Shown: positions 26,849 to 57,395 of the stretch, in pieces
How positions within the stretch are numbered: position 1 is the first letter of the stretch
Layout of the letters: every line of letters starts with the position of its first letter
DNA from: Salinibacter pepae
GTDB taxonomy: Bacteria > Bacteroidota > Rhodothermia > Rhodothermales > Salinibacteraceae
Length of the DNA: 64,000 bases
Assembly: GCF_947077775.1 (NCBI RefSeq)
Contig: NZ_CAMTTE010000001.1
Location: 1,426,001-1,490,000 of the forward strand
Direction of reading: 5' to 3'
Position numbers and translations under genes: made by a program
Notes under the pieces: model-generated
The model's input: the letters and a program-made list of their open reading frames with translations, nothing else
Database searches by the model: none
What the model was told of the DNA's origin: nothing

Positions 26849-27250
26849 CTATGTATCGAACGCAGCAACGGGTTCCCCCAGCAGAAGAAGGGCACATCCA
26901 GCGCCAATCGCAACCAGGACGAGGCCGAGCACAGTGCTGAGCAGCACATTGCCCAGTCCCGCCACGATTCGTCCCTCCCGGAGCAGCATCAGACTCTCCA
27001 GGCCGTAGGTCGAAAACGTCGTCAGCGACCCGATTCCTCCAGTAAAGACAAACAGCCGGGCCTCCTGCGAGAACGAATACTCAGCGGCGAGGACCCACAG
27101 CCCCCCGATGAGGAAACAGCCCGAGAGGTTGGCCGCGAGCGTGCCCCACGGAAAATTCGACGGCAGAAGACGGTGCGCGAGGACGGAGAGGCCGTGCCGA
27201 GACAGGGCACCGAGGCTTCCGCCAAAGGCGATCCAGAGCAGCTTCATCAT
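26849..27250 (-). CDS. crcB: CrcB/Fluc fluoride ion channel
   Basis: A 133-residue dual-topology membrane protein that exports fluoride. All family signatures are present: GGSLGALSRHGLS (9-21), WGTLAANLSGCFLIG (35-49) with the pore Asn, and TGGIGSLTTFSTYGLE (70-85) with the TTFST and central Na+ site region. Only one gene is seen, so it should form a homodimer, unlike species with two crcB genes. It starts 204 bases after arsN2. The leader has a hairpin near 27278-27306 but I do not see the fluoride riboswitch consensus. Confidence 0.92.
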   Translation of the reverse strand: MMKLLWIAFGGSLGALSRHGLSVLAHRLLPSNFPWGTLAANLSGCFLIGGLWVLAAEYSFSQEARLFVFTGGIGSLTTFSTYGLESLMLLREGRIVAGLGNVLLSTVLGLVLVAIGAGCALLLLGEPVAAFDT

Positions 27251-27277: not shown

Positions 27278-27306
27278 CTCCTACGTGGAATGAGAGATGG
27301 TAGGAG
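27278..27306. promoter_or_regulatory. Hairpin in the crcB leader
   Basis: CTCCTAC and GTAGGAG form a perfect 7-base stem with a 15-base loop, 28 bases upstream of the crcB start codon. It could be an attenuator, a terminator for arsN2 transcription, or chance. It does not match the fluoride riboswitch core that I remember. Confidence 0.3.
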
Positions 27307-27454
27307 TCACCAGCTTCGGACGTGCGGCGCTGCGCGGGAGCAGTTATCGGCAAATTCCATTGCCATTACCAGACACGCGGAGAAAGCGGCGTCCGCCCGG
27401 CAAGTTTCCCCGGTGGGAGCGCCAGCCTGCCGCATTGTTCTTGACAGTTTCTAT

Positions 27455-53583: not shown

Positions 53584-54324
53584 CTACACCGTCTCCTGCT
53601 CGGACCCTGTCGTCCGCTCGGCGCCTTCCAGTTTGTACCCAATTCCGTACACGCTCTGGATGGGCCACTCGTCTTCCGCCTCGCCGTCCATAACGTCGCG
53701 GAGGGCGTTGACGTGCCGGTCGATGGTGCGCGTCTCTACCTCGGTGGGCAGGTCCCACACGTCGCGGAGAATCTGCTCACGGGTGGCCGTGCGGCCGCGC
53801 CGGCGCAGCAGATAGGCGAGCAGCTTGTACTCCAGGTCTGTGAGGTCGACGGGCTCTCCGTCCCGTGAGACATCGTCCTCTTCGAGGTCCACGCGGAGCC
53901 CCCCGACCCGAAACGTCCCGGTTTCGTCGGTTGCCTCCGCCTCCCGACGAAGCAGCACGTCAATGCGTGCCACCAGCTCCTCCGTCTCGAACGGCTTCGT
54001 TAGGTAGTCGTCGGCGCCGACCTGGAAGCCCCGCATCTTGTGCTCGTGGTCGCCGAGGCCCGTGAGCATGAGCACCGGCGTGCGGACCCCGTCGTCCCGG
54101 GACTGCCGGAGCACTTCGAAGCCGCTGAGGTCGGGTAGCTTCGCGTCGAGCACGATCAGGTCGTACCCCGGAAGCCGTGTGGCCTCTTGCAGGGCCGTTT
54201 CTCCCGTCTCGGCGAGCGTCACCTCGTAGCCCTCGGATTCCAGGTAGAGCAGAAGACTCGTGCTAAGCTCGCTATCGTCCTCGACGACGAGAAGAGACGG
54301 GCCTTCGGGGTCGGAGTCGGACAT
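53584..54324 (-). CDS. OmpR-family response regulator (orphan)
   Basis: A 246-residue regulator. Receiver residues are EDDSE (15-19), Asp60 in DLIVLDAKLPD, Thr in MLTGLGDHE and Lys in ADDYLTKPF. The winged helix carries TIDRHVNALRDVMDG and IQSVYGIGYKLEG. It has a Ser/Glu-rich N-terminal ten residues. Start 54324 is chosen because the domain begins soon after. It lies tail to tail with the other orphan regulator, and no kinase gene is near, so partners must be elsewhere. Confidence 0.92.
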   Translation of the reverse strand: MSDSDPEGPSLLVVEDDSELSTSLLLYLESEGYEVTLAETGETALQEATRLPGYDLIVLDAKLPDLSGFEVLRQSRDDGVRTPVLMLTGLGDHEHKMRGFQVGADDYLTKPFETEELVARIDVLLRREAEATDETGTFRVGGLRVDLEEDDVSRDGEPVDLTDLEYKLLAYLLRRRGRTATREQILRDVWDLPTEVETRTIDRHVNALRDVMDGEAEDEWPIQSVYGIGYKLEGAERTTGSEQETV

Positions 54325-54503
54325 GGAGGCAAAAGAAGTTAGGCAGAGAGAAGAGTCGGCGCGGAACTGGACAACCCATACGATACGAAGCACGGTACGC
54401 TTCCGACAGGGCGCCCGATCCTATTACCCTCTCGCAACAAGAGAAGCTGCTTCAACAGATTCATATCCCTGCGGCCACGCTGGGAGCCGTACCGACCGCA
54501 TTC

Positions 54504-54533
54504 CTCCTGCAGTCGGCCCTCCTGCAGTCGGCC
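54504..54533. repeat. 15-bp tandem duplication
   Basis: CTCCTGCAGTCGGCC occurs twice head to tail in the spacer between the RtcB-family gene and the response regulator gene. Each unit contains a PstI-like CTGCAG palindrome. No function is evident; probable slippage product. Confidence 0.75.
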
Positions 54534-54584: not shown

Positions 54585-56015
54585 TCACCCGTGCATGACG
54601 GCGAGGGGCTCCAGCCGCGCCACCTTGCCGGCGAGGCGCGACCCGGCGACCGTCTCCACGACCCCGCCGATGTTTTCCTTGAGCTGGACGCCGGCGGACG
54701 CGGATCCGTCGCCGGACCGAACGGCGACGCCGTCCCCGTCCCCGTCGAGCGGCACCGGCTCGGCCTGGTGGTTTGCCTCGTGGCGACTCATGGTCCGTCC
54801 GGCGCCGTGACAGGCCGACCCAAAGCTCTTCTGCATTGCGTCGCGGGTGGCCAGCATGACCCACGAGGTCTCGCCCATGCTTCCGGGGACCAGCACCGGC
54901 TGTCCGAGGGCCCGGTACGGGAGCGAGATGCCCGGCGTGCCGGGGCCAAAGGCGCGCGCCGCCCCCTTGCGGTGGACGTAGCAGCGCATGTGCTTGCCGT
55001 CGACCTGATGCATCTCCACCTGCCCCAGGTTGTGGGCCACGTCGTAGACCGTCTTGAGCCGTTCCCCCGCCCCCTCAAGCAGATCGTCGAACACTTCGCG
55101 GACGCGGTGGGCCAGCACCTGTCGGTTGGCGTAGGCGTAGTTGGCCGCGGCCCGCATGGCCCCCATGTAGTCCTCCGCCTCGCCCGAGTCGAGCGGCACC
55201 GACGCCAGGTTCGGGTCCGGCGGGTCGATGTCGTAGGAGGGGGCCACCTCCTGAAACCGCTCGATGTAGTCGGCACAGACCTGTCGCCCGTAGCCACGGG
55301 AACCGCAGTGAATCTGGGCGACGAGGGTGCCCTCTTTGAGGCCCATCGTGACGGCCGCCGCGCGGTTGAAGACCTCCTCCACGGAATGGATCTCAATGAA
55401 GTGCTCCCCGCCCCCAAGCGTCCCGAGCTGCTGCGCCCCAATCGACCGGGCCGCCTCGCTCACCTTCTTCGGGTCCGCCTCGTTGAGGCGCCCCCCCTCC
55501 TCGGCGCGGACGAGGTCGTCCTGCTGCGCCATGTCCTTGCGCAGGGCCCACTGGGCCCCGGACTGGGCGACGTGGTCGACCTCGCTCTTGTTGAGCGAGA
55601 TGGACCCCTCCGCGTCCGTCCCGCTCGGAATGTGGTTCTTCAGGGCGTCGGCAAGGGCGTCGAAGTTGCCCTCCGCCTCTTCGGTCTTGATGTCCGACCC
55701 CAGCAGTCGGACGCCCGCGTTGATGTCGTGTCCGATGGCGCCGGGCGCAATGGTGCCCACCGGCCATTTCGACACGGCCACAATGCCCACCGGCGCCCCC
55801 TGCCCGCTGTAAACATCGGGCATCACCACGAGATGCCCCACCAGCCCGGACAGCATCGAGGTGCGAATCGCCTGACCGATGGCCTTTCGGTCGAGAATCT
55901 CGTCGATGAGATTCTCACTCGCGAGGATGCGCACGGGCACCCGCATCGCGTCCTGGAACGACTGGGGGATTTCCCATGTGAATTCGTCGATCCGCGTCAG
56001 GTCCGTGCGTTTCAT
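54585..56015 (-). CDS. Divergent RtcB-family protein with altered active site
   Basis: A 476-residue member of the RtcB 3'-phosphate RNA ligase family. Retained are the DIN Asp (D97), H205, H236 in IHCGSRGYG, H328 in VAHNLG, and the guanylation His H403 in CHGAGR. Three positions normally invariant differ: DINAGVR has Ala100 where canonical RtcB has the metal-binding Cys; GGGEHFIE has Glu204 where Asn contacts GTP; and the chain ends LAVMHG where canonical proteins have a Lys in VKG. PDVYSG also replaces PDVH-x-G. A ligase role is therefore doubtful; a changed reaction or cofactor is possible. No archease gene is adjacent. Confidence 0.85.
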   Translation of the reverse strand: MKRTDLTRIDEFTWEIPQSFQDAMRVPVRILASENLIDEILDRKAIGQAIRTSMLSGLVGHLVVMPDVYSGQGAPVGIVAVSKWPVGTIAPGAIGHDINAGVRLLGSDIKTEEAEGNFDALADALKNHIPSGTDAEGSISLNKSEVDHVAQSGAQWALRKDMAQQDDLVRAEEGGRLNEADPKKVSEAARSIGAQQLGTLGGGEHFIEIHSVEEVFNRAAAVTMGLKEGTLVAQIHCGSRGYGRQVCADYIERFQEVAPSYDIDPPDPNLASVPLDSGEAEDYMGAMRAAANYAYANRQVLAHRVREVFDDLLEGAGERLKTVYDVAHNLGQVEMHQVDGKHMRCYVHRKGAARAFGPGTPGISLPYRALGQPVLVPGSMGETSWVMLATRDAMQKSFGSACHGAGRTMSRHEANHQAEPVPLDGDGDGVAVRSGDGSASAGVQLKENIGGVVETVAGSRLAGKVARLEPLAVMHG

Positions 56016-56243: not shown

Positions 56244-57395
56244 CTACGCTGGGGCCTCGGCCGCCCGCTCCGCCGCCTCGTTCTCAGCCCCGCCCACCTC
56301 GTGAATCCACCCCCCGCCGAGCACATCGTCGTCCTCGTACAGCACGAGGCTTTGCCCCGGCGTGATGGCGCGCTTCGGCTCGGCAAAGGCCACCTTCAGG
56401 GTGTCCTCGTCCGGCTGCCAGGCCAGGCACCCCGCCCCATCGTCGTTGTAGCGGATCGTGCCCCAGGCCGGGCGCTCCCCGTCGAGCTCGGGGTACTTTA
56501 CGAGGTTGATCTCGTGGGCCGTCAGGGTCTGTTCCATGAGCTCCTCCCTCGGCCCCACCGTGATCGTGTTTGTCTCGGGGTCAATGTCGGTCACGTAGAC
56601 CCGCTCGCCAAGCGCAAGGTCGAGGCCCCGACGCTGGCCGATGGTGTAGAAGGGATAGCCGTCGTGCTCCCCCACCACGGTGCCGTCGCTGAGCACGAAC
56701 GTGCCGCCGCTTACCTCCTCCTCAAGTCCGTCGACGCGGTCCTTCAGGAACCGAGGGTAGTCGTTGTCCGGGATGAAGCAGATCTCGTAGGAGTCCGGCT
56801 TGTCGGCCACGTTGTCGAGGCCGAACTCCGCCGCCATCTTGCGGATCTCCGGCTTCTCGTGCGCACCAAGGGGGAAGATCGAGCGGGCGAGGTGCCCCTG
56901 CGGCAGGCCCCAGAGCGCGTAGCTCTGATCCTTGTTGCGGTCGAGCCCGCGGCTCAGGAGGTAGCGGTCCCGTTCGTCGTCGTAACGGACGTTGGCGTAG
57001 TGGCCCGTAGCGATGTACTCGCAGTCCAGGTCATCGGCCCGCTGCAACAGGGCGTCCCACTTGATGTGGGTGTTACAGAGCACGCAGGGGTTGGGCGTGC
57101 GGCCCGAGAGGTACTCGTCGGTGAAGCGCTCGATCACCCAGTCCCCAAACTCCTCCCGCAGGTCTACCACGAAGTGCGGAAAGCCGTGCTCAGTCGCCAC
57201 CACACGGGCGTCGTTCATCGACTCGATGGAGCAACAGCCCACTTCTTTTCCGTCGCGCCCCCCGCTGGTGGAATAGTCCCAGGTTTTCATGGTGAGGCCC
57301 ACCACGTCGTAGCCGCGCTCTTTGAGCAGCACGGCCGTCACCGAGGAGTCGACCCCGCCACTCATGGCGACGAGCACGCGTCCCTTTTTGCTCAT
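56244..57395 (-). CDS. mnmA: tRNA-specific 2-thiouridylase MnmA
   Basis: A 383-residue enzyme that puts sulfur on U34 of tRNAs for Lys, Glu and Gln. The PP-loop SGGVDSS is at 12-18. The catalytic cysteines are in NPCVLCNTHIKWD and SYEICFIPDNDY, and the tRNA-binding segment is RGLDRNKDQSYAL. The beta-barrel end includes VYVTDIDPETNTITVG and the last residues are acidic and Ala-rich. All signatures are intact. It is separated from the RtcB-like gene by about 230 bases with no obvious gene. Confidence 0.95.
   Translation of the reverse strand: MSKKGRVLVAMSGGVDSSVTAVLLKERGYDVVGLTMKTWDYSTSGGRDGKEVGCCSIESMNDARVVATEHGFPHFVVDLREEFGDWVIERFTDEYLSGRTPNPCVLCNTHIKWDALLQRADDLDCEYIATGHYANVRYDDERDRYLLSRGLDRNKDQSYALWGLPQGHLARSIFPLGAHEKPEIRKMAAEFGLDNVADKPDSYEICFIPDNDYPRFLKDRVDGLEEEVSGGTFVLSDGTVVGEHDGYPFYTIGQRRGLDLALGERVYVTDIDPETNTITVGPREELMEQTLTAHEINLVKYPELDGERPAWGTIRYNDDGAGCLAWQPDEDTLKVAFAEPKRAITPGQSLVLYEDDDVLGGGWIHEVGGAENEAAERAAEAPA

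Follow-up and report, generated by a model that had tools for sequence, protein, structure and literature searches.

An RtcB-Family Variant from Salinibacter and Its Relatives without the Metal-Bridging Cysteine but with Four Conserved Metal Ligands in a Rebuilt Active Site

The window, i.e. the complete stretch of 64,000 nucleotides of Salinibacter pepae DNA that was analyzed, encodes an RtcB-family variant, hereafter RtcBv, which is flanked upstream by the tRNA 2-thiouridylase MnmA and downstream by an OmpR-type response regulator (Table 1). The original prediction had described the reading frame as intact, which we confirm, and we add that its strand is the minus one. In most loci RidA, MnmA, RtcBv, and the response regulator are found together. 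Within the window, a gap of 191 bp separates RtcBv from the same-strand response regulator, and scans for terminators and promoters between RtcBv and its neighbors returned nothing above chance. The two genes could be co-expressed; Longimonas and one MAG lineage have lost this adjacency. The gap also holds two head-to-tail copies of the 15-base unit CCTCCTGCAGTCGGC at 54503-54532. Elsewhere in the window, an ordinary-looking fluoride riboswitch (38.6 bits, 27294-27373, minus strand) directly precedes a CrcB-like ORF (26849-27250, minus strand).

Membership in the RtcB family follows from a full-length profile match combined with an RtcB fold: RtcBv matches Pfam PF01139 with 450 bits over profile positions 1-426 of 426 and aligns with the solved RtcBs of Pyrococcus (1uc2, E 9e-119) and Thermus (2epg, E about 1e-107), its scores lying below the NCBIfam equivalog cut-offs. 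An AlphaFold model computed from a 16-sequence alignment (mean pLDDT 67.8, pTM 0.76) retrieves 1uc2 as the best Foldseek hit (TM 0.81, E 6e-43); because the pLDDT drops below 50 around His403, we use this model for the fold only and do not argue from its active site geometry. The closest named relative is found in Salinibacter altiplanensis (97%), and within its own genome of 3.63 Mb RtcBv is the sole RtcB-family gene.

Table 1. Genes at the RtcBv locus and active site positions of RtcBv, with coordinates in the window (Ph, Pyrococcus numbering; counts refer to canonical RtcBs and members of the variant clade).
Feature	Position	Strand	Remarks
OmpR-type response regulator	53584..54393	-	directly downstream of RtcBv; Pfam; kept in most orthologous loci and in the type-3 locus
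RtcBv, RtcB-family variant gene	56015..54585	-	476 aa; ATG at 56015; intact single ORF
MnmA, tRNA 2-thiouridylase	56244..57395	-	directly upstream of RtcBv; PF03054/PF20259/PF20258; conserved neighbor by synteny
Tyr69 (PDVY) = Ph His67	55809..55811	-	canonical H 87/87; clade Y 16, H 2, S 2
Asp97 = Ph Asp95, metal ligand	55725..55727	-	D in clade 20/20, canonical 87/87
Ala100 = Ph Cys98, Cys bridging both metals, lost	55716..55718	-	canonical C 90/90; clade T 10, A 7, S 2, V 1
Glu204 = Ph Asn202 (phosphate contact), replaced	55404..55406	-	canonical N 90/90; clade E 17, A 2, Q 1
His205 = Ph His203, metal ligand	55401..55403	-	clade 20/20, canonical 90/90
His236 = Ph His234, metal ligand	55308..55310	-	clade 20/20, canonical 90/90
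Cys237, new, beside metal ligand His236	55305..55307	-	canonical Thr/Ser; C in clade 20/20, canonical 4/90
His328 = Ph His329, metal ligand	55032..55034	-	clade 20/20, canonical 90/90
His403 = Ph His404, guanylated nucleophile	54807..54809	-	clade 20/20, canonical 89/89
Gly442-Val-Gln-Leu-Lys-Glu447, replacing EEAPxAYK	54675..54692	-	clade K 19/20, E 17/20
His475 = Ph Lys480 (guanine contact), replaced	54591..54593	-	canonical K 74/75; H in 17/17 aligned clade members and 2/2 type-3 sequences

For the comparison of the active sites, residue columns were counted in Pyrococcus numbering across 90 canonical RtcBs from Bacteroidota, archaea, human, Thermus, E. coli, Actinomycetota, Cyanobacteria, Bacillota, and phages, and across 20 members of the variant clade; equivalent positions were taken from alignments to the solved RtcBs of Pyrococcus (1uc2), Thermus (2epg), and human (8odo). 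These alignments reproduce the numbering and all four substitutions from which the original prediction had started, namely Cys to Ala100, Asn to Glu204, Lys to His475, and PDVH to PDVY. As the affected columns are nearly invariant among canonical RtcBs, the changes are due to neither chance nor misalignment, and the solved structures together with the 90 homologues equally rule out that the Cys, Asn, and Lys have merely been displaced to other positions. Among the features expected of a canonical ligase, the metal-bridging Cys98 is missing from all 20 clade members, and the same holds for the GTP-site residues Asn202 (0/20), Lys480 (0/17), and Tyr451 (0/20). The proposed concerted exchange to Ala, Glu, and His stands for the latter two residues, which are near-fixed apart from deep branches such as Longimonas (Ala or Gln for Glu204, Ser for His475), but not for position 100, which alternates between Thr, Ala, Ser, and Val: judging from this distribution, the conserved feature at this position is the absence of Cys and not Ala itself. 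Nor is the remainder of the pocket intact, as had been assumed. An unbiased comparison of all columns revealed that EEAPxAYK (Ph 445-452), whose Tyr451 and Lys452 are each present in 82/82 canonical enzymes, is rewritten to GGVxxKE in the clade, that Arg190 is exchanged for Leu, Ile, or Ala, and that GYGF has become GQGA.

Two residues were considered as substitutes for the lost metal ligand. Cys237 is not clearly a replacement, since the four canonical enzymes that share this Cys also possess Cys98. Glu204 could in principle take over as a ligand in most members, yet two lineages have Ala or Gln at this position.

The original prediction further held that the guanylation histidine and most metal ligands remain, and here the clade is uniform: His404 as well as Asp95, His203, His234, and His329, i.e. 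four of the five metal ligands, are present in 20/20 members. Fully conserved positions are Asp65, Asp95, His203, Phe204, Glu206, His234, Arg238, His329, Lys351, Ser385, and His404, of which Phe204, Glu206, and Ser385 form the floor of the guanine pocket and Arg238 contacts the RNA.

Mutational analyses of other RtcBs indicate what the losses may entail. The RtcBs of Pyrobaculum, E. coli, and human all become ligase-dead when the Cys is replaced by Ala (PMC10630183), and the human variant C122A performs neither guanylylation nor ligation (PMC10944509). In Pyrococcus, D65A, D95A, N202A, H203A, F204A, E206A, H404A, and K480A are each inactive as single exchanges, with archease restoring K480A but not N202A (PMC3973293). 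RtcBv combines three losses (Cys, Asn, Lys) that are individually inactivating in the tested enzymes, from which we infer that standard GTP-dependent ligation has been lost; by this analogy, ordinary RtcB ligation by RtcBv is unlikely, although single mutants of other RtcBs may not predict the behavior of a protein with many coupled changes. By descent and fold RtcBv belongs to the RtcB family, yet it should not be listed as an RNA ligase.

Besides Salinibacter itself, Salinivenus, Longimonas, and uncultured Bacteroidetes from hypersaline settings (MAGs) possess orthologues of RtcBv. Either the variant or a second form, here termed the type-3 orthologue, is present in 24 of the 27 genomes of the GTDB family, including every one of the 14 with a completeness of at least 90%. 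Outside this family, 196 genomes sampled at the class level and 394 at the phylum level yielded only canonical RtcBs wherever the sequence was read; as far as seen, RtcBv is confined to the Salinibacter/Salinivenus/Longimonas family of hypersaline Bacteroidota. An origin from phages, plasmids, or defense systems was rejected: viral contigs contained no relative of RtcBv, phages and plasmids carry only distant RtcBs with less than 40% identity, PADLOC gave no hit, and the chromosomal synteny is stable. Two RtcB homologues from more distant Bacteroidota (G120:C43:5040-6431 and G414:C81:3906-5006) contain an in-frame stop codon, for which assembly errors or pseudogenes are possible explanations.

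The type-3 form (L023, L024, and L051 in genomes G020 and G026) is regarded as the orthologue of RtcBv because it occupies the same site between MnmA and the response regulator. It has kept Cys98 and has exchanged Asn202 for Gly, Asp65 for Asn, Arg238 for Ala, and HGAGR for HSGAR. Longimonas RtcBv, in turn, has lost Asn330, Arg412, and the terminal His. Nevertheless, His404 and the same four His/Asp ligands are present in 22/22 sequences across the variant and type-3 lineages. We infer that Asn202, Lys480, and the EEAPxAYK motif were probably lost first and the Cys later.

In a maximum-likelihood tree the variants form one clade (98/87), which two type-3 sequences join at 100/100, with a long stem of 0.89. 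Its sister group consists of canonical RtcBs from two class-level genomes, an exact placement that is less certain because of the long branches, and the canonical RtcBs of the family itself lie elsewhere in the tree. Forcing the variants and the family's canonical RtcBs together is rejected (p-AU 0.0002). The sequences show that RtcBv descends from an RtcB lineage other than the archease-linked canonical RtcB of its family. Eleven family genomes encode a canonical RtcB as well, usually beside archease. Among family genomes with a completeness of at least 90%, canonical RtcB and archease go together, being either both present (8/8) or both absent (6/6); archease (PF01951) was not found in G000, G003, G004, G007, G014, and G015, and the genome of the window yielded no canonical RtcB, archease, or RtcA. 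In these genomes RtcBv is not accompanied by the archease gene, in genome or operon, that would mark an archease-dependent RtcB, and an E. coli-type rtcBA RNA repair operon is likewise not seen: RtcA (PF01137) occurs in 3/27 family genomes, with that of the window not among them. Four canonical RtcBs of relatives (L040, L041, L042, and L043, from G028, G012, G010, and G008) are split by an intein of ~510 aa precisely at the position of the catalytic Cys (GYDIN|CGVR). That RtcB can harbor inteins is already known; a variant without the Cys would lack this insertion site.

Which function, then, could such a protein fulfill? The original prediction had argued for altered chemistry instead of decay. 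With respect to decay, codon models yield an omega of 0.033 for 17 variants compared to 0.043 for nine canonical RtcBs of the family, and 0.031-0.033 for close Salinibacter species pairs; as purifying selection is strong and no weaker than on canonical RtcB, RtcBv is not decaying, and the near-universal intact frames and the fixation of the new residues agree with this. That RtcBv is a relaxed paralogue on its way to loss might be read from the free choice among Ala, Thr, Ser, and Val at position 100 and from two MAG copies (L022/L064 and L067) with insertions or a frame change; in view of the omega values, the fixed replacement residues, and the retention of the gene in every complete family genome, this reading is largely refuted and highly improbable. 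Adaptation to a halophilic lifestyle was also discarded, as the residues in question are all present both in the RtcBs of haloarchaea and in the canonical RtcB of the family. The main rival reading is that RtcBv has become a non-catalytic pseudoenzyme, i.e. an RNA or nucleotide binder, scaffold, or regulator, perhaps acting with the adjacent response regulator. Three individually essential residues are gone (PMC3973293, PMC10944509), the active site losses differ between deep branches (Asp65 and Arg238 in type 3; Asn330, Arg412, and the terminal His in Longimonas), and in most loci the response regulator follows directly. Invariant retention of His404 and four metal ligands would, however, be unusual for a mere scaffold, and neither Longimonas nor the L064/L067 lineage has kept the gene next to the response regulator; we consider a pseudoenzyme rather unlikely. 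Less probable still is a re-engineered, archease-independent, and perhaps oxidation-resistant RNA ligase that dispenses with the Cys and has replaced canonical RtcB and archease in S. ruber-like genomes. The active site Cys has been described as the oxygen-sensitive weak point of RtcB (PMC13247085), six archease-free genomes of at least 92% completeness have no RtcB other than the variant, and RtcBv retains Arg238 and the guanine floor alongside His404 and the His/Asp ligands. Against this, at least 10 genomes encode the variant in addition to a canonical RtcB, which makes it no simple replacement; the RtcBs of haloarchaea from aerobic brines (L126, L127, and L130) keep the Cys, the Asn, and the AYK motif, which argues that neither salt nor oxygen demands the change; and an Asn202Ala exchange is not rescued even by archease (PMC3973293).

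We favor, with close to even confidence, the view that RtcBv is a neofunctionalized RtcB paralogue, probably a metal-dependent enzyme acting on RNA ends or in phosphoryl chemistry, that has lost canonical ligation. The argument rests on the two lineages: What was lost from the nucleotide and RNA sites differs between them, and both kept the same center, consisting of the four His/Asp ligands, His404, Glu206/Phe204/Ser385, and Lys351, which favors a function that still uses the metal/His404 center. RtcBv would thus have given up the archease-activated, GTP-dependent joining of 3'-phosphate and 5'-OH ends and might operate with a Cys-free 3-His/1-Asp metal center beside His404. Its substrates may be RNA ends or phosphorylated guanine compounds, and the chemistry could be a hydrolysis or phosphoryl transfer, for example the opening of a 2',3'-cyclic phosphate, the exact reaction and substrate being a guess. 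Retained catalytic residues are by themselves no proof of catalysis, and the four-ligand site is tied to RNA ends only through the retained Arg238, which type 3 lacks. Altered chemistry is plausible but putative. The more specific picture of a naturally Cys-free, working RtcB with new chemistry at a His/Asp metal site, independent of archease and perhaps of GTP, and directed at RNA ends or another phosphorylated substrate, is one we hold somewhat more tentatively.

In reviews, the two-metal site bridged by the Cys is regarded both as universal among RtcBs and as the point at which RtcB is vulnerable to oxygen. The RtcBv clade is a natural experiment in this regard: the Cys and three GTP-site elements are gone, and the remaining center is under strong selection. 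As RtcBv is the sole RtcB-family protein in S. ruber-like genomes, no canonical copy would there hide the effect of a gene deletion. For database curation, it is unsafe to annotate members of this subfamily as "RNA ligase RtcB".

Among known systems, the canonical RtcBs of Pyrococcus horikoshii (1uc2/4dwq/4it0) and Thermus (TTHA1785, 2epg) resemble RtcBv in their full-length fold, the guanylated His, and the Asp/His ligands at 43% identity, whereas RtcBv lacks their metal-bridging Cys, Asn202, Lys480, EEAPxAYK, and Arg190. The archease-linked canonical RtcB of the family (L032, L034, L038; some with an intein at Cys98) shares the Pfam family and the genomes with RtcBv, but belongs to a separate clade, possesses all catalytic residues, lies beside archease, and is only ~42% identical. 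Further bacterial paralogues are Myxococcus RtcB1-3, reported to be active in work cited in PMC10630183, and RtcB2-PrfH: like RtcBv, these are paralogues found with or without another RtcB in the same genome and exhibit shifted activities, with the difference from RtcB2-PrfH that RtcBv does not adjoin prfH.
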